Shown here piece by piece: positions 22,854-33,692 of a stretch of DNA of 38,967 nt. The position numbers were made by a program, and so were the translations under genes. This DNA is from an uncultured Lachnospiraceae bacterium. GTDB taxonomy: Bacteria > Bacillota > Clostridia > Lachnospirales > Lachnospiraceae. Position 1 is the stretch's first letter. Each line of letters opens with the position of its first letter. The stretch covers positions 1 to 38,967 of the forward strand of contig CANREG010000024.1 of the NCBI GenBank assembly GCA_947629565.1. Direction: 5' to 3'. The notes below the pieces were generated by a model. That model searched no databases. It saw nothing but the letters and a program-made list of their open reading frames with translations, and had not been told where the DNA came from.

Positions 22854-23000
22854 AATTTATAAAATATATTTTATAGTCTTGAAATTTTATTCGTGAAAAA
22901 GACAGTTTTTTGCATTTTATTTCTTATAGTAATTCGATAACAGTTCTGCATAATTCAGTATTTCCCATTCCATACTAATCTATATAAGAATAAGGTAATT

Positions 23001-23180
23001 GCGAAATGCCCAATCACTTATATTATGTTATGCAAATAGAACAAATACCATAAGCAGGGTTTTTTACGCACGCCGGTACTTAATGAGTGCAAAGCACGAA
23101 TTTAGTACCGCTGCGTGTGTAAATAAGTGAAAACGCCCCTGCGTTGGTATTGTTCTATTCATATAATTAAAGCATTTCGC
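23001..23180. repeat. Structured palindromic element, copy A
   Basis: This fills much of the 22830-23200 gap. It can fold as one long branched hairpin. GCGAAATGC (23001-23009) pairs with GCATTTCGC (23172-23180). Next AATAGAACAA-ATACCA pairs with TGGTATTGTTCTATT, GCAGGG (23054-23059) with CCCTGC (23137-23142), and ACGCACGC (23066-23073) with GCGTGTGT (23113-23120). Then come CGGTACT (23074-23080) with AGTACCG (23104-23110), and finally GTGC-AAA-GCAC (23087-23097). Copies C and B share the unpaired bases and the pairing scheme but not the arm sequences. A TATAAT lies in the right arm (23162-23167), 34 bp before the next start codon, so the element may include or flank that gene's promoter. Confidence 0.85.
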
Positions 23181-23200
23181 ACACAAGGAAGGTTGATTGT

Positions 23201-24292
23201 ATGGAATATCAGGTAACTCTGCCGGTTAAAAATGAAAACGGTTATTATGAAATCCGCTTGGAAAGCATTGGCGGATTAGGCGCTAACCTCTGCGGAAAAA
23301 TGTTAGGGGAGTTAGGGGCATTGTACATGGGGCTCAATGCGGCCAGCTTTTCCAGTTACGGTTCGGAAAAGAGAGGTTCGCCGGTAAAGGCATTTATCCG
23401 CTATAGCGGGCGGGAGCAGGAAATCGGAATCAATTCTCCTGTGGAAAAACCACATATTTTAGGCTTGTTCCACGAGGCTATGATTGGAAAAAGCGCTGTG
23501 ACTGCGGGCGTGACAGGGGACACAAGGATTGTCATTAACACAGACGCGTCACCGGAAAATATCAGGAAGCGGCTTAAGCTGAAGGAGGGGACAATCTGTT
23601 GCATTGACGCCCTTAGCATTGCCATGGAATCCAAAACAAGGATTAATATGGTCATGTTGGGTGCGATTGCAAAGGCTTCTGAATTTATACCCTTAGATGC
23701 TGTGTCAGAGCTTGCAAAGAAAACTATCGGAAAAAAATATCCGGCAATGTGGGAGGCCAATTTAGAAGGCATAAGGCGGGGCTATGAGGAGTTAAAATCA
23801 CAGTATTTTGCAAAAGACGAAAGCGGTGAGGAGGAATATCAGGAAATCAAAAATGAATGGGGCTATGCAAATTCTCCTATTGGCGGCGTAAATCCCTGTA
23901 TCGGCTCTACGGTCTCCAATGATTTGTCAGCTTCAAGGGAAGGCTATATTCCGCTGTTTATAAAGGAAAGGTGCATTAACTGCGGCCTCTGTGATAGCAC
24001 CTGTCCCGACATGGTATTTCAGTTTGCAAAGGGGGAGTATCAGGGACGGGAAGCCATGGTGAATATGGGATTAGATTATCATCACTGCAAGGGCTGTCTG
24101 CGGTGCGTGGACGTGTGTCCGGTAAATGCGTTAGTAGCCGGGGTGGAGCGGGAGCATCCTAACCCGGAATATGCCATGAGAAATCAGGATTTGCTGCCGG
24201 AGCAGCTTGACTATGAGGCGTTAGGCCCCAATTCCTATGTAACCAGCGAAGCCTATCTGACGGAGAACCGGGTTGACGGCGGTCTGGTGTGA
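23201..24292 (+). CDS. 2-oxoacid:ferredoxin oxidoreductase, fused gamma-delta subunit
   Basis: The 363-aa product joins two subunits. Residues about 15-205 are the gamma domain (YEIRLESIGGLGANLCGKML, SYGSEKRGSPVKAFIR, PHILGLFHEAMIG). Residues about 245-315 are a delta ferredoxin domain with two [4Fe-4S] motifs: CINCGLCDSTCP (about 257-268) and CKGCLRCVDVCP (about 296-307). The enzyme oxidatively decarboxylates a 2-oxoacid to an acyl-CoA while reducing ferredoxin. The alpha-beta partner follows 164 bp later. The ribosome site is AAGGAAGG. This two-chain split differs from the single-chain pyruvate:ferredoxin oxidoreductase usual in Clostridia. Confidence 0.93.
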   Translation: MEYQVTLPVKNENGYYEIRLESIGGLGANLCGKMLGELGALYMGLNAASFSSYGSEKRGSPVKAFIRYSGREQEIGINSPVEKPHILGLFHEAMIGKSAVTAGVTGDTRIVINTDASPENIRKRLKLKEGTICCIDALSIAMESKTRINMVMLGAIAKASEFIPLDAVSELAKKTIGKKYPAMWEANLEGIRRGYEELKSQYFAKDESGEEEYQEIKNEWGYANSPIGGVNPCIGSTVSNDLSASREGYIPLFIKERCINCGLCDSTCPDMVFQFAKGEYQGREAMVNMGLDYHHCKGCLRCVDVCPVNALVAGVEREHPNPEYAMRNQDLLPEQLDYEALGPNSYVTSEAYLTENRVDGGLV

Positions 24293-24293
24293 G

Positions 24294-24380
24294 CCCGCCG
24301 GTATTTAGGTGGTGCGTAGCAGCACCTTATGTACCGTTGCGAGGCGAGGGTGCGCAAGCGTTCCTGCGTTGGTATTGTTC
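24294..24380. repeat. Structured palindromic element, copy C (partial)
   Basis: Between the two oxidoreductase genes lies a degenerate copy: CCCGCCGGTA beginning right after the stop codon, a core hairpin GGTGGTGC-GTA-GCAGCACC (24308-24326, one mismatch), GTACCG (24331-24336), and CCTGCGTTGGTATTGTTC (24363-24380), which is identical to the right arm of copy A. The left outer arm is missing, as expected if the upstream gene occupies that space. Confidence 0.7.
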
Positions 24381-24456
24381 AGTTTGTACAACAGTTACGG
24401 TATAAAAAGCGTTTCGGATCACCTTGTTAATGCAAACATAGAAGGGAGTGCAGAAA

Positions 24457-26751
24457 ATGGAAGAACAACAGATTTTATTTGAAAGCGGAAACGAACTGGC
24501 CGCCCATGCGGCAAAGCAGATTAATTATCATGTGATGGGGTATTATCCGATTACGCCCTCTACCCAGATTGCGGAGCTGTTAGACCAGATGAAAGCGGAG
24601 GGGGAGCATGATATTTCTTTGATTGCGGCGGAGGGAGAACACAGCGCGGCGGGAATCTGTTATGGCGCTGCTGCCGGCGGGGGCAGGGTATTTAATGCCA
24701 CCAGCGCCAATGGTCTGTTATATGCGTTAGAGCAGCTTCCGGTCCAGTCCGGCACCAGACTGCCTATGGTCTTGAATGTGGCCTGCCGTACAGTGTCGGG
24801 ACCGCTCTGTATCAAGGGAGACCACAGCGACATCATGTATACCTTAAACACAGGATGGCTGATTTTCTTTGCCAATACGCCCCAGGAGGTGTACGACATG
24901 AATCTGTTTGCCTTAAAGCTGGCGGAGCGGGTGAAACTTCCGGCTATCGTGGCCTTCGACGGATTTTTCACCAGTCATCAGAAGCGGAACAGCCAGGTGT
25001 TTAAGGAGGATGCGGTCATAAGAAAATTTATTGGGGAATATCATGCCGATTATTCCGCATTGGATTTAGAGCATCCGGTTTCTATCGGTTCCTATATGAA
25101 CGAACCGGACATTTTGAACAATAAATATCAGCTTCATCTGGCAATGGAGCAGGCGTTAAAGGAACTGCCGGATATCCTGGAGGAATTTCATCATTTATCC
25201 AGCAGACGCTATGAGCTGGTCCAGGGGTATTGCACTGAGGACGCGGAGGTGCTTTTGTTTATACTCGGCTCCGCTTACCATACGGCGAAAGTCGCTGTGG
25301 ACAAGCTGAGAAAGGAGGGAAAAAAGGTGGGGGTGTTCACCACAAAACTGCTGCGCCCTTATCCGGCGGACGACCTCTACAAAATGTGTAAAAATGCAGG
25401 CACCATTGTGGTGGCGGACCGTCAGGACAGCTATGGAGCCGGAGGCGGCAATCTTTCCCTTGAACTGAAAGCCATGATACAGGGGAGATTCCCGGATCAT
25501 CAAAATGAGGACTACGGGCAGCCGGAGGCAGGCTCTTTGTTAAACAGCCAGACGCATATCCGGGTGTTAAGCCGGATTTACGGTTTAGGCGGGAAGGATT
25601 TCTATGAGGAGGACGCCAGAAATCTTCTGCTCTTGGGCTTTGAGGACCGGGCAAAGGCGTTTGATTATACCGGAATCTATCCCGGCAGCGAGGATTACCG
25701 TCCGCCGGAATATTTTGCGCCGATAACGAGGGAGCAGTCAGCGCCGGGCTGTACCCGGACCCAGTGGAAAAATGAGAAAGGCGTCAGCCGGGTAGTGGTT
25801 CAGGGAGGAATGATCAACGAGGTAACGGCCATGCCGAAAAGGCTGGCGCCGGGCCATGGCGCTTGCCCCGGCTGCGGCATACCGGTCAATGTGAACCTTT
25901 TGTTAAAGGGCATAGAGGGAAACGTGGTATTGCTGTTCCATACCGGCTGCGGCATGGTCGTGACCACCGCTTACCCTAAGACGGCCTTTAAGGTGCCGTA
26001 TGTTCACAACCTGTTCCAAAACGGGGCGGCCACATTATCCGGTCTGGTGGAGATGTTTCATCAAAAGCAGAAGCGGGGGGAATATCCGGAGGGCGAGATT
26101 ACCTTCATCATGGTAAGCGGCGACGGCGGCATGGATATCGGCATGGGTTCCGCCCTTGGAACCGCAATCCGCAATGAGCGGCTTATCATTTTTGAATATG
26201 ACAACGGCGGTTATATGAATACAGGCTATCAGCTTTCCTATTCTACGCCTAAGGGCGCCAAAAGCGCCACCTCCCATGTGGGAGCCTTACAGTACGGAAA
26301 GAGATTTTTTCATAAGGATTCTCCCATGCTGATGGCGGCGACCAACCTGCCCTATGTGGCGACGGTGGCGGAATCCAATCCGGCGGATTTTGTGAAAAAA
26401 GCGGCTAAGGCGAAGCTGTATGCCAATGAATTTGGAACGGCATATTTAAAGGCTCTTTCCGCCTGTCCTTTAAACTGGAACGACCAGCCGAATACGGAGC
26501 GGAAAGTGATTGCGGCGGCAGTGGATAGCTGCTATTTTCCTCTCTTTGAAATTGAAAACGGTATCACCACCCTGTCCTATAATCCGGAGGGCGCCCACAA
26601 GAAAATCCCTGTGTTGGATTGGCTTTCCATGATGGGGCGGACGAAGCATTTAAAGAAGGAGGAATATAAGAGCGTGGTGGCGGAAATCCAGCAGGAGGTG
26701 GACAGAAGATGGGAACGGTTAAAGGCGAGGGCAGAGCACCCGCTTTTGTAA
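24457..26751 (+). CDS. 2-oxoacid:ferredoxin oxidoreductase, fused alpha-beta subunit (pyruvate-type)
   Basis: The 764-aa product begins with an alpha region (YYPITPSTQIAELL near residue 30, AEGEHSAAGICYGAAAGG, the pyruvate-type RTVSGPLCIKGDHSD near 113 and VAFDGFFTSHQ) and a domain II (about 260-350). A beta region follows, with APGHGACPGCG near 464 and the thiamine diphosphate/Mg motif GDGGMDIGMGSALG near 555. The ATG at 24457 is chosen because GAAGGGAG lies 8 nt upstream; GTG 24448 is in frame but overlaps that site. With the gamma-delta gene it makes a complete enzyme. The DHSD region suggests pyruvate; related branched-chain oxoacid enzymes cannot be excluded. pta lies 1.6 kb downstream, consistent with acetyl-CoA use. 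Confidence 0.92.
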   Translation: MEEQQILFESGNELAAHAAKQINYHVMGYYPITPSTQIAELLDQMKAEGEHDISLIAAEGEHSAAGICYGAAAGGGRVFNATSANGLLYALEQLPVQSGTRLPMVLNVACRTVSGPLCIKGDHSDIMYTLNTGWLIFFANTPQEVYDMNLFALKLAERVKLPAIVAFDGFFTSHQKRNSQVFKEDAVIRKFIGEYHADYSALDLEHPVSIGSYMNEPDILNNKYQLHLAMEQALKELPDILEEFHHLSSRRYELVQGYCTEDAEVLLFILGSAYHTAKVAVDKLRKEGKKVGVFTTKLLRPYPADDLYKMCKNAGTIVVADRQDSYGAGGGNLSLELKAMIQGRFPDHQNEDYGQPEAGSLLNSQTHIRVLSRIYGLGGKDFYEEDARNLLLLGFEDRAKAFDYTGIYPGSEDYRPPEYFAPITREQSAPGCTRTQWKNEKGVSRVVVQGGMINEVTAMPKRLAPGHGACPGCGIPVNVNLLLKGIEGNVVLLFHTGCGMVVTTAYPKTAFKVPYVHNLFQNGAATLSGLVEMFHQKQKRGEYPEGEITFIMVSGDGGMDIGMGSALGTAIRNERLIIFEYDNGGYMNTGYQLSYSTPKGAKSATSHVGALQYGKRFFHKDSPMLMAATNLPYVATVAESNPADFVKKAAKAKLYANEFGTAYLKALSACPLNWNDQPNTERKVIAAAVDSCYFPLFEIENGITTLSYNPEGAHKKIPVLDWLSMMGRTKHLKKEEYKSVVAEIQQEVDRRWERLKARAEHPLL

Positions 26752-26805
26752 TCCGGCGTAAAAATGTGCGTTTTCAAATCGAAACATTTGCTTTTATAAA
26801 AAATA

Positions 26806-26834
26806 TTGACATCGCCCGTATCGTGAATTATTCT
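26806..26834 (+). promoter_or_regulatory. Sigma-A promoter of the lipase-like gene
   Basis: A perfect TTGACA (26806-26811), a 17-bp spacer and TATTCT (26829-26834) lie 35 bp before the ATG. This is among the best promoter matches in the window. Confidence 0.75.
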
Positions 26835-26868
26835 TAAAACAGAATGTTAAATTCAGGGGGAAATACAA

Positions 26869-28209
26869 ATGAAGATTTTATCACGCATATGGGATATCAT
26901 TCTTATTTTTTATCTGGCAAATGCGCCTACTTTAGTGGCTATGTGGGGACATGGGATTTTTGTTGCCGTGGCAGTTTTGCTGTTCCTTGTTATCAATGTG
27001 GCGCCCTGCCCTGCCAACCGAAAACTGTTGAGCAGGCGGCTTAAGATTTGTGGAAACGGATGCGAGCTTTTAATCGTATTTATCATTTCTGCGGTGATAA
27101 TTACCGTCTATTCCATTGCAGGATTTTTCGGTGCCTTTCCGGTAGGCTCCATAACAGAAAATTTAAAATTATGGCTTATCAACACACTGGTTGCCATACT
27201 TGTGGAGGCGATTGTATTCTGGAACGGAATTATACGGGTGTACATGACTTCCCAGCAGTTAGGATTAAGATGGCGTGTGGTGGGTATTATCTGCGGAATG
27301 ATTCCCATTGCCCATTTAGTAGCGCTGGGAATTATTATCAGGACCGTATCCTTTGAGGTTTCCTTTGAAAATGAAAAGCTTGAGTTAAACCGCCGACGGG
27401 AGGCAGAGCGCATCTGCGCCACCAAATATCCGATTTTGATGGTGCATGGCGTGTTTTTCCGGGATTATCGTTTCCTCAATTATTGGGGGCGGATTCCCAA
27501 GGAGTTGGAAAAAAACGGAGCAGTGGTGTATTATGGCAACCACCAGTCTGCCGAATCGGTGGAGGAATGTGCGAAGGAGATTGCCGCCCGGATTGAGGAA
27601 ATTGTCCGTACAACCGGCTGCGAAAAAGTCAATATCATCGCCCACTCCAAGGGAGGTTTGGATAGCAGATATGCGATTTCCCTTTTGGGGGCCAGCCGGT
27701 ATGTGGCGTCCTTAACCACCATTAACACGCCTCACCGGGGCTGTGAGTTTGCGGATTATCTGCTGTCCAAAATGGCGGAGTCACAGAAAAATATGCTGGC
27801 AAAGACTTATAATGCCGCCCTGAAAAAGTTAGGGGATACCAGCCCGGATTTCTTAGCGGCGGTAAGCGACCTGACTGCCTCTGCCTGTAAAGACCGCAAC
27901 GAACTTGTAAAAGATGTGCCGGAGGTGTATTACCAGAGTGTGGGTTCTACCCTGAACCATGCCTCAAGCGGCAGGTTTCCGCTTAATTTTTCCTATGAAC
28001 TGGTTAATTACTTCGACGGTTCGAATGACGGCTTAGTGGGTGAAAAATCATTTCCATGGGGGGAGAAATTCCAGATGATTCAGGTGACGGGAAAACGGGG
28101 CGTTTCCCATGGTGATATGATTGACTTAAACCGGGAAAATATCAGGGACTTTGATGTGAGGGAATTTTTTGTCCAGCTAGTCAGCAATCTGCGGGAAATG
28201 GGATTTTAG
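26869..28209 (+). CDS. Membrane-anchored alpha/beta-hydrolase, triacylglycerol-lipase-like
   Basis: The 446-aa product starts with about four membrane segments (residues 5-160; for example GIFVAVAVLLFLVINVA and LLIVFIISAVIITVYSIAGF). A lipase-type hydrolase domain follows. It has the oxyanion-region YPILMVHGVFFRD (about 185-197), the nucleophile elbow AHSKGG (Ser at about 260), LTTINTPHRG and a late VSHGDMIDL with the probable catalytic His. AGGGGGA lies about 9 nt before the ATG. A fused multi-pass anchor is unusual for a secreted lipase and suggests action on membrane lipids or an esterase at the membrane face. It has its own promoter, so it is probably not part of the oxidoreductase operon. 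Confidence 0.88.
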   Translation: MKILSRIWDIILIFYLANAPTLVAMWGHGIFVAVAVLLFLVINVAPCPANRKLLSRRLKICGNGCELLIVFIISAVIITVYSIAGFFGAFPVGSITENLKLWLINTLVAILVEAIVFWNGIIRVYMTSQQLGLRWRVVGIICGMIPIAHLVALGIIIRTVSFEVSFENEKLELNRRREAERICATKYPILMVHGVFFRDYRFLNYWGRIPKELEKNGAVVYYGNHQSAESVEECAKEIAARIEEIVRTTGCEKVNIIAHSKGGLDSRYAISLLGASRYVASLTTINTPHRGCEFADYLLSKMAESQKNMLAKTYNAALKKLGDTSPDFLAAVSDLTASACKDRNELVKDVPEVYYQSVGSTLNHASSGRFPLNFSYELVNYFDGSNDGLVGEKSFPWGEKFQMIQVTGKRGVSHGDMIDLNRENIRDFDVREFFVQLVSNLREMGF

Positions 28210-28269
28210 GCTGTCTGGCAATTGTTTGAAAAAAAATCCAAATTTTACCTGAATTTTGTTAAAAATTCC

Positions 28270-28297
28270 TTGTGAAATCTTAAAAAAATTATATAAT
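28270..28297 (+). promoter_or_regulatory. Sigma-A promoter of pta
   Basis: TTGTGA (28270-28275), a 16-bp A/T-rich spacer and a perfect TATAAT (28292-28297) lie about 60 bp upstream of the pta ATG. Confidence 0.65.
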
Positions 28298-28357
28298 AGA
28301 AATAAGGGATTTATCAGTCCGACAATAAAGGATAAGCAGAGAATGGAGGAGAGAGTA

Positions 28358-29341
28358 ATGTTTGGTTTTGGGCAGTTGATTGACATTTTGAAACATAATC
28401 CGAAGAAAATTGTATTTACAGAGGGCAACGACCCCCGTATTCTGGAAGCGTCCTCAAGACTTTTGGCAAGCAATTTCCTGCATCCGATTTTAATCGGCGA
28501 ACCGGATGAGATTTATCAGGTGGCCGGGGACAGCGGATTTAATATCCGGGGCTCCGAGATTATCAACCCTAAGGATTTTCCGGATATGGAAAAGATGGTG
28601 GAGGAGTTTTGTGAGATTAGAAAGAGTAAAGGGGTAACGCCGGAACAGGCGAGGGAATATCTTTTACAGAATAATTATTTCGGAACGATGCTGGTAAAGA
28701 TGGGATATGCAGATTCCCTGTTAGGCGGGGCAACCTATTCCACAGCCGACACAGTCAGGCCGGCCTTGCAGTTGATTAAGACAAAGCCGGGGAATACTCT
28801 GGTATCCTCCTGTTTTATTCTGGTGCGCCCTTCTGCTACCGGTGACAACGAGGTGTTAGCCATGGGAGACTGCGGTATCAATATCCGCCCTTCAGAGGAT
28901 GAATTAGTGGAGATTGCCGAGGAGACCATACGATGCGCCAAGGTGTTCGGCGTAGATCCGAAGGTCGCGTTTTTAAGCTATTCTACCGACGGCTCCGGCC
29001 ATGGCGAGGATGTGGATAAGATGCGGAATGCGGCAAGAAAGACCAAGGAGCGTAACCCGGATGTGCCGATTGACGGCGAGATGCAGTTTGATGCGGCGGT
29101 TTCCCCGAAGGTTTCCCAGAAGAAATGTCCGGATTCCGAGGTGGGCGGCCATGCCAATACCTTTATTTTCCCGGATATCAATGCGGGTAATATCGGATAT
29201 AAAATTGCGCAGAGAATGGGTAATTTCGAGGCTTATGGTCCCATTTTATTAGGACTGAATTCGCCGATTAATGATTTGTCAAGAGGCTGTACAGCCACAG
29301 AAGTCTACTCTATGGCAATTATTACAGCGGCGTTGGCGTAA
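28358..29341 (+). CDS. pta: Phosphate acetyltransferase
   Basis: The 327-aa product is the short, catalytic-domain-only form of phosphotransacetylase, which interconverts acetyl-CoA and acetyl phosphate. Family motifs include KKIVFTEGNDPRILEAS near the N-terminus, the GGATYSTADTVRPALQ stretch (about 127-142), FLSYSTDGSGHGEDVDKM and DGEMQFDAAVSP, HANTFIFPDINAGNIGYKIAQR and the C-terminal GPILLGLNSPINDLSRGC. ATG 28358 is chosen because GGAGGAGAG lies directly upstream; ATG 28343 has no comparable site. No acetate kinase gene follows. The transcript ends at the terminator at 29440, so ackA must lie elsewhere. Confidence 0.97.
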   Translation: MFGFGQLIDILKHNPKKIVFTEGNDPRILEASSRLLASNFLHPILIGEPDEIYQVAGDSGFNIRGSEIINPKDFPDMEKMVEEFCEIRKSKGVTPEQAREYLLQNNYFGTMLVKMGYADSLLGGATYSTADTVRPALQLIKTKPGNTLVSSCFILVRPSATGDNEVLAMGDCGINIRPSEDELVEIAEETIRCAKVFGVDPKVAFLSYSTDGSGHGEDVDKMRNAARKTKERNPDVPIDGEMQFDAAVSPKVSQKKCPDSEVGGHANTFIFPDINAGNIGYKIAQRMGNFEAYGPILLGLNSPINDLSRGCTATEVYSMAIITAALA

Positions 29342-29386
29342 TATAAGAAGTGTCTGCTTCAATGAATATCAGGTATGTAACATTTA

Positions 29387-29417
29387 GCCGGATGCACGCC
29401 CTGAAGGCGCGTCCGGC
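29387..29417. repeat. REP-like palindrome after pta
   Basis: GCCGGATGCACGCC and GGCGCGTCCGGC form a stem of 6 bp, an internal loop and 4 more pairs around CTGAA. No U-run follows on either strand, so it is not by itself a terminator. It may protect the pta mRNA 3' end. Confidence 0.45.
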
Positions 29418-29432
29418 CAAATATCTCAGGGA

Positions 29433-30863
29433 TTAGATGCCCCGCTGTAGATAGCGGGGTTTTTTGATTGGGAAAGAAATCCCTCCTAACTGACGGTAGG
29501 TGCGGCAGATAAGAACGCCTGCAATGACAAAGGTAAAGATGTCTGAAACCGGCATAGAGTATAAAACGCCGTCTAAGCCGAAAAATACGGGCAGCAGCAA
29601 GGCAAAACCTACGCCGAATACAATTTCCCGCACCATGGAAAGCAAAGTGGATTCTAAGGCTTTTCCCATAGCCTGTAAGAAAATGAAGCAGGCCTTATTC
29701 ACGCAGGCAAAGACAAGCATGCAAAGGTAGATGCGGAAGGCTTTGACAGCAAAGTCGGTATAGTAGCTGCTCTCATTGGCTGCGCCGAAAATCTGAATAA
29801 GCTGGCGGGGGAAGAGCTCCACAATGCATAATGCAGTCAGACCGACGGCTGCTTCAGCGGCTAACAGTTTGGTAAACAGGCTTTTTACCCTTTTCGTGAG
29901 TTTGGCGCCCATATTATAGCCGACAATGGGGATGCAGCCTGCGGCCATGCCGACAACAATGGAGATGACAATCTGGAAGAATTTCATTACAATGCCGACT
30001 ACAGCCATGGGAATCTGGGCAAACTGCTCCTTTCCAAATACCGGATGCAGGGCGCCGTATTTTCTAATCATGTTGTTGATGGCGGCCATGGCGGCAACAA
30101 GGGAAATCTGGGAAAGAAAGCTGCATATTCCCAGTATCAGAGTTTTCCTTGCAATGCTTAAATCAATGCGGTAATCTGCCTTTTGCGGCTTTACCGTCTT
30201 CATATGAAACAGATACCATACGGCCAAAAGAGCAGTGACAATCTGGCCGATTACGGTAGCAACCGCCGCTCCCATCATTCCCCATTTGAACAGGAAAATA
30301 AAAATGGGATCAAGAATGATATTCAGCGCGGCTCCGGCCAGCGTAGACACCATGGCAAATCTGGGATTTCCATCGGCGCGGATGATGGGGTTCATCGCCT
30401 GCCCGAACATATAGAAGGGAATACCCAGGGAAATGTAAAAGAAGTACTCTTTGGAGTATCGGAAGGTTTCCTCATTGACAGTGCCGCCGAACATGGCAAT
30501 AATCCGGTTGCTTAAAAGCAGGTAAACGGCGCATAATATGATACTGCATGCAATGCTTAAGACAACGGAATTGCCTACGCTTTTCCTTGCCCGGTCAGAT
30601 TCCTTTTTTCCGAGGCTTAAGCTGACAAAGGCGCAGCAGCCGTCCCCAATCATAACCGCTATGGCAAGGGCGATTACCGTCAGGGGAAATACCACTGTGT
30701 TTGCAGCATTGCCATAAGAGCCAAGATAGGCGGCGTTTGCAATAAAGATTTGGTCCACAATATTATACAGCGCGCCAACTAAAAGAGAGATAATACAGGG
30801 AACAGCATATTTTTGCATCAGTTTTCCGATTCGTTCTGTTCCTAAAAATTGATTTGTTTCCAT
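29433..30863 (-). CDS. MATE-family multidrug/Na+ antiporter
   Basis: The 476-aa protein has about twelve membrane segments and MATE landmarks: IGKLMQKYAVPCIISLLVGALYNIVDQIF at the N-terminus, GDGCCAFVSLSLGKKE, NPIIRADGNPRFAM (about 142) and a later AAGCIPIVGYNMGAK segment. Such proteins export cationic compounds in exchange for Na+ or H+; the substrate here is unknown. AAAGGA lies about 9 nt before the ATG. Its leader appears to begin with a long terminator-like hairpin (30892-30938). The last residues, PRYLQRG, are encoded by DNA that on the other strand is the pta terminator. Confidence 0.95.
   Translation of the reverse strand: METNQFLGTERIGKLMQKYAVPCIISLLVGALYNIVDQIFIANAAYLGSYGNAANTVVFPLTVIALAIAVMIGDGCCAFVSLSLGKKESDRARKSVGNSVVLSIACSIILCAVYLLLSNRIIAMFGGTVNEETFRYSKEYFFYISLGIPFYMFGQAMNPIIRADGNPRFAMVSTLAGAALNIILDPIFIFLFKWGMMGAAVATVIGQIVTALLAVWYLFHMKTVKPQKADYRIDLSIARKTLILGICSFLSQISLVAAMAAINNMIRKYGALHPVFGKEQFAQIPMAVVGIVMKFFQIVISIVVGMAAGCIPIVGYNMGAKLTKRVKSLFTKLLAAEAAVGLTALCIVELFPRQLIQIFGAANESSYYTDFAVKAFRIYLCMLVFACVNKACFIFLQAMGKALESTLLSMVREIVFGVGFALLLPVFFGLDGVLYSMPVSDIFTFVIAGVLICRTYRQLGGISFPIKKPRYLQRGI
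29440..29465 (+). terminator. Intrinsic terminator of pta
   Basis: CCCCGC (29440-29445), an 8-nt loop, GCGGGG (29454-29459), then six Ts (29460-29465). It is unidirectional: on the minus strand the hairpin has no U-run. It lies inside the final codons of the convergent MATE gene. Confidence 0.85.
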
Positions 30864-30883
30864 TTTATTTCGTCCTTTCTTAC

Positions 30884-30938
30884 AAAAAAATAAACGAGCG
30901 GCAGATAACTGGATTTACGCAGTATCTGCCACTCGTTT
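30884..30938 (-). terminator. Terminator-like hairpin in the MATE leader (candidate attenuator)
   Basis: On the minus strand AAACGAGTGGCAGATACTG pairs with CAGTTATCTGCCGCTCGTTT: 19 pairs including one G-U, one bulged T, loop CGTAAATC. An A and seven Ts follow. This has full intrinsic-terminator form yet sits between the promoter and the MATE start codon. The predicted transcription start (about 30938) coincides with the first base of the stem. Most transcripts would end here unless something prevents folding. No obvious alternative antiterminator pairing is seen. Confidence 0.75.
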
Positions 30939-30944
30939 AAGATT

Positions 30945-30973
30945 ATTTTATGAATTTGCACCTTGAAAGTCAA
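30945..30973 (-). promoter_or_regulatory. Sigma-A promoter of the MATE gene
   Basis: On the minus strand TTGACT (30968-30973), a 17-bp spacer and TAAAAT (30945-30950). The rest of the stretch up to 31100 shows no gene. Confidence 0.7.
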
Positions 30974-31099
30974 AGGTATTTTTCAACAAAAAACAGGGAA
31001 AAAAACGAGGTGTCCATGTCAAAAATGTGCAGGGTTTGTAAAATGATTATTGATTCTCCAGGTGGATTAGAAATTGTTAGCAGATAAAATAGAAATAGG

Positions 31100-31128
31100 T
31101 TGAATTTATCCTAGAATTGACATATACT
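31100..31128 (+). promoter_or_regulatory. Sigma-A promoter of the antitoxin gene
   Basis: TTGAAT (31100-31105), 17 bp, TATACT (31123-31128), 32 bp before the antitoxin ATG. Overlapping TATAAT at 31128 is an alternative -10. Phd-type antitoxins normally bind this region of their own operon. Confidence 0.6.
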
Positions 31129-31160
31129 ATAATCATCAAAACAATGCGGAGGTATATATA

Positions 31161-31403
31161 ATGACAATAGATACAAATACAATGGTTTCCATTACAGAAG
31201 CAAATCAAAATTTTTCAAAAGTGGCCAGACTTGTGGATGAACATGGAACAGCGGTAATCCTGAAAAACAATGTTCCCCGATACCTTGTGATTGATTTTAG
31301 TAAAGCAGAGTCAGAGTGTGAAGCAGCGGATGAGGATGTATTAAACATATCAAAAAGGTTATTGGCGAAGAATAAGGAAGCCTACGAGGTATTAGCTCAA
31401 TGA
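31161..31403 (+). CDS. Phd/YefM-type antitoxin
   Basis: The 80-aa product has the Phd/YefM N-terminal DNA-binding fold pattern: SITEANQNFSKVARLVDEHGTAVILKNNVPRYLVIDF, then a Glu-rich, probably flexible tail that would bind and neutralise a toxin. CGGAGGT precedes the ATG. Its TGA overlaps the ATG of the truncated toxin frame (ATGA at 31400-31403), the usual coupled order antitoxin-toxin. With the toxin broken, this is likely an orphan antitoxin that could still act as an autorepressor or counter related toxins elsewhere. Confidence 0.9.
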   Translation: MTIDTNTMVSITEANQNFSKVARLVDEHGTAVILKNNVPRYLVIDFSKAESECEAADEDVLNISKRLLAKNKEAYEVLAQ

Positions 31404-31522
31404 TTAGACTGACTAAGAAACAGATTCTGATGCTTCATTCCCAGATGATTAGGGTTTACGGCGGCAGTGACGGGATCAGAGATGAAAAATTGCGCATTTT
31501 ACAGGCACTCAACCTACGGTAG
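31400..31522 (+). pseudogene. Truncated Doc (Fic-fold) toxin remnant
   Basis: The frame overlapping the antitoxin stop encodes 40 residues: MIRLTKKQILMLHSQMIRVY, then GGSDGIRDEKLRILQALN and a TAG stop. The beginning closely matches the start of death-on-curing toxins (RLTKEQILMLH..., GGSDGIRDEGLLDSAL...). Full-length proteins run to about 125-140 aa, with an HxFxDGNKR-type catalytic motif. No such motif is found in any frame of the 80 bp before the next gene. The break follows the DGIRDE helix, where LLDSAL is replaced by LRILQAL. The toxin is therefore very probably inactive. A short regulatory peptide cannot be excluded. Confidence 0.8.
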
Positions 31523-31603
31523 AGTACGCAGAAATCAACTGCCGGTTCGTGTTAATTCGCATCAATTTCAGATATATTTTAGCTATGAAAGGAGGTGCCC
31601 GAT

Positions 31604-32218
31604 ATGGATCAAATCAAAATAGGAAAATTCATAGCGTCATGCAGAAAAGAACAGGGAATGACCCAGGCAGCCCTTGCCGAGAAGCTCGACATAAGTGACC
31701 GGGCGGTATCAAAATGGGAAACGGGAAAATCCATGCCGGATTCCGGAATTATGCTGGAATTGTGTGATTTTCTGAAAATCAATGTCAATGAACTCCTGTC
31801 GGGCGAAAGAATTATGGCAGAATCATATGATAAGTGGGCAGAAGAAAATCTGCTGGCAATGAAAAGGGAAATCGAAGAAAAAAACAGGCAGATGTTAAAG
31901 ACGGAATACTGGATTGTCCTTCCGGCTGTCCTTGCCGGACTCGTCATGGTATTTGTGGCTTCATTTGTTGTGATGCCTGCATGGCTGCGAGGGACGCTTA
32001 TTGTATTTGCTGCTGCATTGATAGTTACAGTTGCTTTCGTTGCAGTAGAAATTGAGCAGAAAACCGGATACTATGAGTGCCAAAATTGCGGTCACAGACA
32101 TGTACCGACTTACTGGCAAACCAATCTTGCGCCGCATGCCGGCAGGACGAGATACATGAAATGCCCGGAGTGCGGAAAACGAAGCTGGCAGAGGAAAGTA
32201 TTGACAAAGGAAGATTAA
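31604..32218 (+). CDS. XRE-type HTH membrane protein with C-terminal zinc ribbon
   Basis: The 204-aa protein has an N-terminal helix-turn-helix (RKEQGMTQAALAEKLDISDR and AVSKWETGKSMPDSG, about 12-48). A coiled stretch and two adjacent membrane segments (about 100-142) follow, and the tail carries two CxxC pairs (Cys159/162 and Cys187/190) that should bind zinc. ATG 31604 has AAAGGAGGT 8 nt upstream. It may be a membrane-tethered transcription regulator. This architecture is common in Lachnospiraceae, and its targets are unknown. Transcription ends at the bidirectional terminator at 32249. Confidence 0.9.
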   Translation: MDQIKIGKFIASCRKEQGMTQAALAEKLDISDRAVSKWETGKSMPDSGIMLELCDFLKINVNELLSGERIMAESYDKWAEENLLAMKREIEEKNRQMLKTEYWIVLPAVLAGLVMVFVASFVVMPAWLRGTLIVFAAALIVTVAFVAVEIEQKTGYYECQNCGHRHVPTYWQTNLAPHAGRTRYMKCPECGKRSWQRKVLTKED

Positions 32219-32248
32219 ATTTCTGTTTCGATTGTATTAAATTTACAA

Positions 32249-32335
32249 AAAAAATAACCGGAACCCCTTTTACAGGTTATCCCAGAATATGGCGGTCTTC
32301 ATGGGAAAGATGTAAAGGGGTTCCGGTTATTTTTT
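32249..32335. terminator. Long bidirectional terminator
   Basis: AATAACCGGAACCCCTTTTACA (left arm, 32249-32274 with flanking As) pairs with the right arm TGTAAAGGGGTTCCGGTTAT (32311-32330) over about 25 bp with one bulged T. The loop has an inner TCCCA/TGGGA stem. T-runs follow on both strands: six on the plus, eight on the minus. It serves the XRE gene and the convergent DtxR-type gene, whose stop codon lies in the right arm. Confidence 0.85.
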
Positions 32336-32701
32336 CGTAAAATTCGGAATATTTTTCTTAATTGCCTCGAAACTTTTCTTGCTGATTACATGCTCCATCT
32401 TACATGCGTCTTCGGCGGCGGTTTTTTCGTCTACCCCAAGGCTGACCAGCCAGGAGGTAAACAGCTCATGTCGCTCGTAAATCATCTCGGCAATCTCCCT
32501 TCCGGAGGAGGTCAGCGTGATATAACCGGCGTCCGAGACGGTAATGTGTCCCTTTTCCCGCAGATTCTTCATGGCAATGCTGACGCTGGACTTTTTAAAT
32601 CCCAGTTCTGTTGCAACATCTACAGAGCGCACTACAGGCAGGGATTTACTAAGGATTAATATGGTCTCTAAATAATTTTCCGCTGATTCGTTAATCTTCA
32701 T
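32327..32701 (-). CDS. DtxR/MntR-family iron-type metal-dependent repressor
   Basis: The 124-aa product has an N-terminal winged helix (VDVATELGFKKSSVSIAMKNL, about 27-47) and the metal-binding dimerisation domain, but no SH3-like third domain, as in MntR. Ligand positions point to iron: His78 (ERHELF) and Cys100-x2-Glu103-His104 (DACKMEHV) match DtxR's His79, Cys102, Glu105 and His106, whereas MntR has Glu in place of the Cys. I use ATG 32701, as GGGAGGA is too close to the ATG at 32704. It is divergent from the feo genes, which it should repress when Fe(II) is plentiful. TTAG/CTAA arrays before feoA and feoB are its likely sites. Confidence 0.93.
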   Translation of the reverse strand: MKINESAENYLETILILSKSLPVVRSVDVATELGFKKSSVSIAMKNLREKGHITVSDAGYITLTSSGREIAEMIYERHELFTSWLVSLGVDEKTAAEDACKMEHVISKKSFEAIKKNIPNFTKK

Positions 32702-32781
32702 CATATCCTCCCAGGTATTTCCGATAAAATGTAATATTATTGTACCATAAATAATGAAGAGAGGGAAAATTTTTTTATTTT

Positions 32782-32826
32782 TTAGAAAAAAGTTATTGAC
32801 AACTAATCAAAGTTAGAATAAACTAA
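32782..32826 (+). promoter_or_regulatory. feo promoter with overlapping TTAG/CTAA operator array
   Basis: TTGACA (32796-32801), 17 bp, TAAACT (32819-32824). Half-sites lie at TTAG 32782, CTAA 32803, TTAG 32813 and CTAA 32823. The last three alternate orientation with 6-bp gaps, placing one half-site per 10-bp turn across the promoter spacer and the -10. TTAG-N6-CTAA (32813-32826) is a dyad of the kind DtxR-family repressors bind. Binding would block polymerase. Confidence 0.7.
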
Positions 32827-32898
32827 CAAAGAAAGCAAATAAAAGCCAGTGGTGTTTTCCGCCATTTATATGTGCGCATATGGGAAGGAGATGGTGAT

Positions 32899-33108
32899 AT
32901 GCCTCTTACAATGGCAAAGGAAGGAGAGCCGAACATTATAAAGCATATCGGCGGTAAGGAGGAGACCAGACAGTTCTTAGAGAATTTGGGTTTTGTATCG
33001 GGCGGTACGGTAACGGTTGTGTCTATGATTAATGGCAGCATGATTGTCAATGTCAAGGATTCCAGAGTTGCCATTGGAAAGGATATGGCCTGTCACATTA
33101 TGGTTTAG
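32899..33108 (+). CDS. feoA: FeoA-domain protein 1
   Basis: The 69-aa product is a small SH3-like FeoA protein: MPLTMAKEGEPNIIKHIGG, then TRQFLENLGFVSGGTVTVVS and NGSMIVNVKDSRVAIGKDMACHIMV, the last being the usual RVAIGxxMAxxIxV end. ATG 32899 is preferred since AAGGAG (32885-32890) is 8 nt upstream; an earlier ATG at 32872 would overlap that site. FeoA acts in the cytosol as partner or regulator of FeoB ferrous iron transport. It is the first gene after the promoter at 32796, with a second feoA 88 bp later. Confidence 0.93.
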   Translation: MPLTMAKEGEPNIIKHIGGKEETRQFLENLGFVSGGTVTVVSMINGSMIVNVKDSRVAIGKDMACHIMV

Positions 33109-33111
33109 TTT

Positions 33112-33144
33112 CCCATCGAGAGAACACGAAGTGTTCGCGAGGGG
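33112..33144 (+). other. Hairpin between the two feoA genes
   Basis: GAACAC-GAA-GTGTTC (33122-33136) is a perfect 6-bp stem with a GAA triloop, extended outward by TCG/CGA and CCC/GGG pairs after small internal loops. No U-run follows. It could be a processing or partial-termination site. The GAA-closed stem resembles the core of the dispersed structured elements, but the flanks do not match. Confidence 0.5.
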
Positions 33145-33196
33145 CACGGCTTAACAAAAAAATGATATCGTATTCATTTAGTAAAGGAGTGTTTAC

Positions 33197-33418
33197 ATGA
33201 AGACATTGAAGGAGGTTCCCTGCGGGGAGACGGTAACAGTGAAAAAACTTACCGGCGACGGTCCGGTAAAGAGAAGAATCATGGACATGGGCATTACAAA
33301 GGGCGTTCAGATTTTTGTGCGTAAGGTTGCGCCGTTAGGCGATCCGGTAGAGGTAACGGTAAGAGGCTATGAGCTGTCCCTGCGCAAAGCAGACGCCACT
33401 ATGATAGAAGTAGAATAA
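33197..33418 (+). CDS. feoA: FeoA-domain protein 2
   Basis: The 73-aa product is a second FeoA: MKTLKEVPCGETVTVKKLTG, then KRRIMDMGITKGVQIFVRKVAPLGDPVEVTVRGYELSLRKADATMIEV. The MDMGITKG and APLGDPVEV motifs are typical, and this copy is closer to the canonical FeoA than copy 1. AAGGAG precedes the ATG. Two separate feoA genes ahead of feoB are seen in several Clostridia and suggest a heteromeric complex with FeoB. A second operator-like array and a structured element separate it from feoB by 323 bp. Confidence 0.95.
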   Translation: MKTLKEVPCGETVTVKKLTGDGPVKRRIMDMGITKGVQIFVRKVAPLGDPVEVTVRGYELSLRKADATMIEVE

Positions 33419-33438
33419 CAAATTTTTTTACCACCAAG

Positions 33439-33493
33439 TTAGTCGCAACTAATAACAAATAGCAATAACTAACAAAAACATAGTCAAAACTAA
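33439..33493 (+). promoter_or_regulatory. Second TTAG/CTAA array, upstream of feoB
   Basis: TTAG (33439-33442), N6, CTAA (33449-33452) repeats the dyad seen before feoA. Further CTAA half-sites lie at 33469 and 33490, that is 20 and 21 bp apart or two helical turns each. No clear -35/-10 pair is seen beside them, so the array might control an internal promoter or act at a distance. Confidence 0.55.
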
Positions 33494-33548
33494 CCCAACA
33501 CAACAAGTAATAAAAACCTATGGATAAAACATCATCAAACCGTAGATT

Positions 33549-33692
33549 GCTGTGTAATTTTAACCAATACCATAAGCAGGCGTTTTTTATGCCCGCCGGT
33601 ACTTAATGAGCGCAAAGCGCGAATTTAGTACCGCTGCGTGGCATAACCAAGCGGGAGCGGCGCCTGCGTTGGTATGGTTAAAATCACACAGC
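33549..33692. repeat. Structured palindromic element, copy B
   Basis: This occupies most of the rest of the 33419-33741 gap. GCTGTGTAATTTTAACC (from 33549) pairs with GGTTAAAATCACACAGC (to 33692). Then come ATACCA with TGGTAT, GCAGGCG (33576-33582) with CGCCTGC (33661-33667), ATGCCCGC (33589-33596) with GCGTGGCAT (33636-33644, one bulge), CGGTACT (33597-33603) with AGTACCG (33627-33633), and GCGC-AAA-GCGC (33610-33620). Same plan as copy A, with most differing arm positions changed on both sides. Confidence 0.88.

Follow-up and report, generated by a model that had tools for sequence, protein, structure and literature searches.

The window (the whole analysed stretch of 38,967 nucleotides, from an uncultured Lachnospiraceae bacterium) contains three copies of a mobile element of MITE-like build, whose RNA-like core is conserved. 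With moderate confidence, the element can be read as a member of a non-autonomous, MITE-like family of the Lachnospiraceae built around a conserved RNA fold, which would be moved by a transposase acting in trans, would be transcribed as part of leader RNAs and would bind a protein through its core. An earlier note had described a repeated folded element here, and this observation is confirmed as real. That note had left two options, selection on a fold or a hairpin-type mobile unit, and as a whole its account is partly supported, with evidence for both halves: the fold has been conserved, with strand-specific signs in favour of RNA, while inverted ends and target duplications are found in relatives and the site of one copy is empty in six related genomes.

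Copies A, B and C were found where they had been placed, A and B being full and C truncated on its 5' side, and the shared unpaired segments and stems named for them are present in the sequence. The extent originally given for copy A was too small, the element spanning about 22992-23183 with its degenerate inverted ends, and the list of helices was short by one, a third small helix with a GNRA loop. The features are the following, bit scores being those of R1, a covariance model built from 20 full copies of the window's genome:

22992..23183, plus strand: copy A, complete, bounded by degenerate inverted ends AAGGTAATTGCGAAATGC ... GCATTTCGCACA
23127..23134, plus strand: P3 mini-hairpin of copy A, GT-GAAA-AC, with a GNRA loop (alignment A1)
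23185-23192, plus strand: Shine-Dalgarno-like AAGGAAGG, directly outside copy A (from the sequence and the ORF list)
23201, plus strand: start codon of ORF 23201-24292, downstream of copy A (from the ORF list)
24294..24389, plus strand: copy C, 5'-truncated, between the co-directional ORFs 23201-24292 and 24448-26751
33552..33689, plus strand: copy B, core and paired arms (133.6 bits), with no inverted ends recognised by eye
33594..33638, plus strand: P2 of copy B, sequence-conserved CGCCGGTACTT ... AGTACCGCTGCG flanking a variable apical hairpin
33651..33658, plus strand: P3 mini-hairpin of copy B, GC-GGGA-GC, with a GNRA loop

R1 matches copy A at 23030-23164 with 136.5 bits; the ends of this copy were read by eye against the type-1 end of relatives, TAGGYAATTGCGAAAC, and its P3 loop is drawn slightly differently in the minimum-energy fold, with a 3-bp stem. 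Against dinucleotide shuffles, the folds of copies A and B have z-scores of -9.06 and -8.03 (0 of 200 shuffles as good), and that of copy C alone (24294-24380) has -1.73 (12 of 200 as good). Copy C, matched by R1 at 24262-24389 with 51.7 bits, is present as claimed, with the partner of its outer arm missing.

In the window's genome, BLAST of copy B gave 28 matches and R1 gave 75 at E<=0.01. Twenty-two of the latter score above 100 bits and are full copies, here called type 1; another 28, at 57-79 bits, represent a second, longer type sharing the core; and the matches beyond both types and copy C are antisense echoes or fragments. The second type (L051-L058 and 20 more places in G000; 31 in G020) consists of hairpins of about 260 nt, in which the core and P3 are as in type 1, the arms and ends differ, and the apical stem is larger.

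The interior of the element is a three-way junction. P1 comprises a long outer arm, which varies between copies, together with TACC..CAGG/CCTG..GGTA; the sequence of P2 (CGCCGGTACTT..AGTACCGCTGCG) is conserved; P3 has a stem of 2 bp and a four-base GNRA loop. The covarying fold claimed previously is borne out both in the own-genome copies and in relatives. Among 20 own-genome copies, double changes are seen in 33 of the 47 pairs and pairing in 95.0% of 939 cells (80.3% when shuffled); the covariation score of 0.429, against 0.145 in shuffles, is reached by 0 of 500 of them and drops to 0.047-0.147 when the partners are slid by 1-3 columns. In alignment A2, with 90 distinct rows from relatives, double changes occur in 42 of 47 pairs (911 cells), 94.7% of 4200 cells are paired, and the score is 0.589 versus 0.201 in shuffles (0 of 500) and 0.049-0.124 with slid partners, values to be read with the fact that A2 was fitted to R1, leans towards it and contains one antisense row. 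The P3 loop is GNRA in 98 of 100 rows, with six loop types and closing pairs GC/GC, GT/AC and AC/GT, and the antisense row accounts for one of the two exceptions. Furthermore, in 90 distinct copies on named contigs, P3 carries a GNRA loop in 78 and another loop in 5, and the rule used recognised no hairpin in 7.

The evidence for mobility comes mainly from relatives, in which type-1 elements are about 205 bp long, with inverted ends TAGGYAATTGCGAAAC and direct repeats outside them. Two marks of MITEs are found in the type 1 of relatives: target-site duplications, and terminal inverted repeats, which are degenerate in copy A and unrecognised in copy B. Among type-1 copies of G016, taken from a score-ranked list, 18 of 20 have direct repeats at the expected place; in older-looking genomes most copies have no visible direct repeat. 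In 33 copies, 13 of which were chosen for having a repeat, 31 exact repeats of 10-16 nt were measured (79% A+T, bases shared with the ends counted in); corrected by eye for the shared bases, the target duplications are about 10-14 bp long, most commonly 12. The end TAGGYRWTTGCGAAAC occurs in G016, with at most one mismatch, 62 times forward and 63 times in reverse, the reversed control giving 0 and 1. Other versions with type-1 ends measure 524-577 bp, 260 bp and, with no core match, about 50-140 bp. The longest ones (L281 and L282 in G016; 524-577 bp) have the core match near the middle and arms that look complementary by eye.

Site C is empty in G008, G009, G018, G019, G021 and G025 (gap of -8 to 54 bp), the gap in the G020 orthologue being 157 bp. 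At site A, no core was found in the 377-400 nt upstream examined in G008, G009, G018, G019 and G021; an end-like remnant is present in G021, and 59 nt are visible in G025. Clean empty sites were also sought between G000 and G020, and the two differences checked (L037 and L305) are deletions within the palindrome. By flank, 16 of the 22 type-1 copies have a G020 orthologue, 5 have none among the fetched G020 loci, one of these being a deletion at the G020 site, and 1 lies near a contig end.

No autonomous partner with the same ends was found in 20 stretches of G016, the list of ends covering 100 of the 125, and none was convincing among the 113 stretches examined on named contigs. DDE_Tnp_1 (PF01609, IS4-type) is absent from G016, G013, G006 and G024, genomes with recent copies, and has 3 matches in G014; the Y1 transposase (PF01797) has 0 matches in the window's own genome (85% complete), the sole genome searched for it. 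The core has also been found between unrelated ends in other elements of the Lachnospiraceae. The idea that the arms are host palindromes entered by a jumping core was rejected for type 1, because the near-identical G016 copies have the same arms, with the direct repeats beyond the ends. CAJTEN contigs, from one genome (35 of the 80 listed loci, e.g., L171, L172, L177), carry core-bearing palindromes with ends CAATGTCATTAAGTTAAG, and those examined lie, by eye, inside or beside another palindrome such as GTAACAGTTC or GTTACTATTCACGGC; for these elements, seen by eye inside another repeated palindrome, the host-palindrome reading may hold.

Type 1 lies at a near-fixed distance from a Shine-Dalgarno sequence, and this is a new observation. 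No such element and no Shine-Dalgarno-targeted insertion was found among the open-licence papers whose titles and opening lines of abstracts were examined. The ends could both be recognised in 66 distinct type-1 elements, of which 47 carry, 14-26 nt outside an end, a Shine-Dalgarno word with a start codon and open frame after it (left end in 30, right end in 17), i.e., in either orientation of the element, and control windows of equal width further out gave 3, 6, 3, 2, 1 and 6 of 66. At least 26 elements of this set come from G016 (20 hits), with 5 of 6 hits in G013, 3 of 5 in G006, and just 2 elements (1 hit) from the window's genome. The Shine-Dalgarno word mostly starts 17-18 nt from the element end, about 5 bp beyond the target duplication in most type-1 elements, and the commonest position of the start codon is 32 nt. 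A looser list of words puts 54 sites within the range of distances, with a profile that peaks at a purine run at positions 17-23, a peak that is partly built in, since such a list selects words of this kind. Consistent with the type-1 spacing, the distance between the core and a downstream sense start codon is 97-131 nt in 10 of 13 cases in the window's genome; moreover, some insertions appear by eye to lie between genes of an operon. The Shine-Dalgarno peak is absent in type 2 (7 and 6 copies), in 25 CAJTEN-like elements and in 22 loci of other genera, and 47 other named copies show a diffuse excess of Shine-Dalgarno sites within 50 nt. A -10 box was also considered as the target and is weak (near TATAAT in 13 of 31 duplications versus 8.1 in shuffles, 65 of 2000 as high; TANNNT in 16 of 31 versus 12.0, 163 of 2000 as high), the Shine-Dalgarno sequence being the better anchor.

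Within the genomes searched, the element is restricted to the Lachnospiraceae, mostly gut bacteria. R1 matches 40 of 98 genomes: all 26 of the genus (own included), 14 of the 34 drawn from other genera of the family, one of them only at E 9.8e-4, and none of the 38 that represent other families of the order. R2, a covariance model built from 98 matches of R1, has matches in 7 of the 291 genomes taken from the class, the own one among them; all 7 lie in the family, which had 10 members drawn, and none of the 281 genomes outside it is matched; stricter filters were used in the genome searches with both models, in which weak matches may be lost. A pattern scan of named genomes found at least 113 stretches, and the 80 listed belong by title to Lachnospiraceae or to loosely named Clostridia, Clostridium, Clostridiales, Lachnoclostridium and Eubacterium, with Oribacterium, Butyrivibrio, Pseudobutyrivibrio and Agathobacter among the genera. 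Viral contigs (exact pattern) and plasmids and phages (BLAST of copy B) gave no match.

Evolution in place is inconsistent between sets of orthologues. In 14 G000-G020 orthologues, substitutions per site fall from 13.0% in the outer flanks to 8.0% in the end zone and 8.1% in the outer arm, and further to 2.8% in the paired arm; the core has 1.6% where it is unpaired and 1.1% where it is paired. The slow core suggests constraint, a suggestion weakened by the fact that the G020 copies were drawn from a score-ranked list. No slowing of the core is seen in 4 G002-G005 orthologues, where it has 12.8% (52/408) versus 7.6% in the flanks (30/395). Regarding pairing, 16 G000-G020 pairs, one of them badly aligned, show 49 one-sided changes versus 3 double changes that keep it, and 4 G002-G005 pairs show 36 one-sided versus 15 double changes, the latter clustered as blocks of whole hairpins. 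Such blocks indicate gene conversion between copies, so that part of the covariation may be copying. The earlier note had held that its fold would fall if arm changes broke pairing as often as they kept it; across paralogues this is not the case, and between orthologues it partly is.

The orientation of the element to genes is random. Out of 133 copies, 23 lie inside predicted frames, which are possibly spurious; of the remaining 110, 40 are sense and 39 antisense, 21 lie between divergent and 9 between convergent genes, and 1 is unclear. In the absence of an orientation bias, a leader with the GNRA strand is expected at some sites only.

The pairing statistics favour an RNA made from the strand bearing the GNRA loop, and it is here that the reading of the palindrome as DNA alone has to be weighed. 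According to this fairly unlikely alternative, RNA is irrelevant, and the palindrome serves as a REP-like cruciform or single-strand hairpin for movement, or arises by arm-to-arm template-switch copying. The random orientation just described speaks for it, as do the arrival of changes in blocks, the wide variation in arm lengths and sequences, and the near-perfect Watson-Crick pairing of the own-genome arms (1 G-U in 100 cells, A1 columns 6-10). In a palindrome that matters only as DNA, G-T and A-C mismatches are mirror images and should be equally common. In the aligned cells, the G-U:A-C ratio is 21:13 in A1 (own genome), a weak excess (p 0.11), and 125:53 in A2 and 123:57 in A3, one antisense row having been left out of each of these two and the cells not being independent. 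A symmetric two-arm alignment of 215 elements, in which both mismatches are scored alike, gives 323:118, and 163:104 (p 1.8e-4) when each sequence context is counted once, against the equality expected from DNA. By unique context, the ratio is 29:16 in sense copies, 41:31 in antisense copies and 31:10 between divergent genes, and the excess is absent between convergent genes (5:5) and in copies inside predicted frames (15:16). The restriction of the P3 loop to GNRA also stands against the DNA-only reading, an argument weakened by the fact that some GNA or GNNA loops are stable in DNA too. Covariation and strand-specific pairing, two marks of a functional structured RNA, are found, with weaker evidence in some context classes and with the caveat of gene conversion.

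Under the preferred reading, that of a non-autonomous element built around an RNA fold, a transposase would act in trans on the element ends, and this putative enzyme would prefer the purine-rich Shine-Dalgarno sequence. After insertion, transcription would start from a host promoter and the element would form an added stretch of the 5' leader, its fold leaving the ribosome site free. The core (P2 and the GNRA-capped P3) may bind a host or transposition protein of the Lachnospiraceae, which would be the selected role of the RNA. Gene conversion would swap hairpins between copies and thereby allow the two sides of a stem to change jointly.

It is improbable, in our view, that the copies are dispersed small-RNA genes with their own promoter, spread by transposition and each making a trans-acting RNA. 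GNRA loops are equally common in antisense (37/39) and sense copies (39/40), and their retention in the antisense ones is expected from self-transcribed units; against this, features inherited from a source copy need no local transcription, and TATA-like letters at the base of the arms are seen by eye on both sides. A promoter in the left arm (TTGCGA and TATA-like letters, by eye) was considered and dropped, the spacing being variable and the letters present on both sides. A cis-regulatory, riboswitch-like leader RNA of the downstream gene is highly improbable: copies A and B are sense to an ORF and immediately upstream of it, copy A comes just after CATACTA, which by eye recurs upstream of the gene in relatives, and the core is slow between G000 and G020, but antisense copies are as numerous as sense ones, six genomes have an empty site C, five have no core at site A (377-400 nt), and near-identical G016 copies stand at many genes.

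A bolder version of the preferred reading, speculative and with little probability of being right, is that of an RNA-dependent mobile element, in which the junction RNA would be part of the transposition machinery, bound by a protein of the Lachnospiraceae and shared across different ends. Type 1 would then be guided by recognition of the Shine-Dalgarno sequence to the upstream edge of ribosome-binding sites, possibly via the nascent mRNA or the initiating 30S subunit, beyond what the DNA sequence alone provides.

That the element belongs to no catalogued RNA family, as the earlier note supposed, agrees with Rfam 15, which has 0 matches in the window at the gathering score. At E<=1, five loci gave 8 weak hits, all to microRNA or PK-repZ models and none reaching the gathering score of its model; six of the 8 fall outside copies A-C, on the hairpin at 32247-32335. 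The latter is long, near-perfect and terminator-like (AAAAAAAATAACCGGAACCCC .. GGGGTTCCGGTTATTTTTT) and follows the ORF that ends at 32218.

Bacterial MITEs are usually regarded as inert remnants of insertion sequences, and REP elements are associated with RAYT, a Y1 transposase. The element differs from REP in its size of about 205 bp with target duplications, and no Y1 transposase match was found in its own genome. In the part of the source consulted, REP elements are described as palindromic, extragenic, present in many copies and 20-40 bp long, and the element is likewise palindromic, extragenic and multicopy (PMC3733652). Prokaryotic MITEs are described, in the sections consulted, as short and intergenic, with inverted ends, target duplications and transcripts predicted to fold, features that the element shares; their locations are given as intergenic or 3'-UTR, the words "Shine" and "ribosome" being absent from the main text, and, unlike them, the element has a conserved junction common to elements with different ends and, in type 1, a position at the 5' ends of genes (PMC10969869). 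The pneumococcal BOX, RUP and SPRITE repeats, as far as the portion of the source used describes them, are also dispersed, strongly folded and thought to be mobile as MITEs, and in these respects resemble the element; transcription has been shown for BOX, whose modules boxA, boxB and boxC and over-representation between convergent genes set it apart by description (PMC3049150). Correia and ERIC elements, cited in the same portion as transcribed hairpins, reportedly cut by RNase, are alike as hairpin elements and differ in their hosts, a comparison made by description alone (PMC3049150).

The element represents a single RNA core carried between unrelated ends in many genera of one family, with a kept fold that bears strand-specific signs, and a candidate structured RNA with a GNRA junction and no Rfam match in the loci compared. 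It also offers a testable case of a mobile element that would limit harm by inserting in the gap ahead of the ribosome site. Should the copies be transcribed as leaders, an additional folded RNA would be carried by many genes of these bacteria. A further repeat lies on the minus strand of the window at 781-1077, a 91-bp tandem repeat of 3.3 copies with 97% matches, whose unit includes an apical hairpin (CACTTAATGAGYGC..GCRCGAATTTAGTG) resembling the one in the element, without the core; apical matches like that of this repeat are found on contigs C17, C23, C33 and C35 of the same genome.
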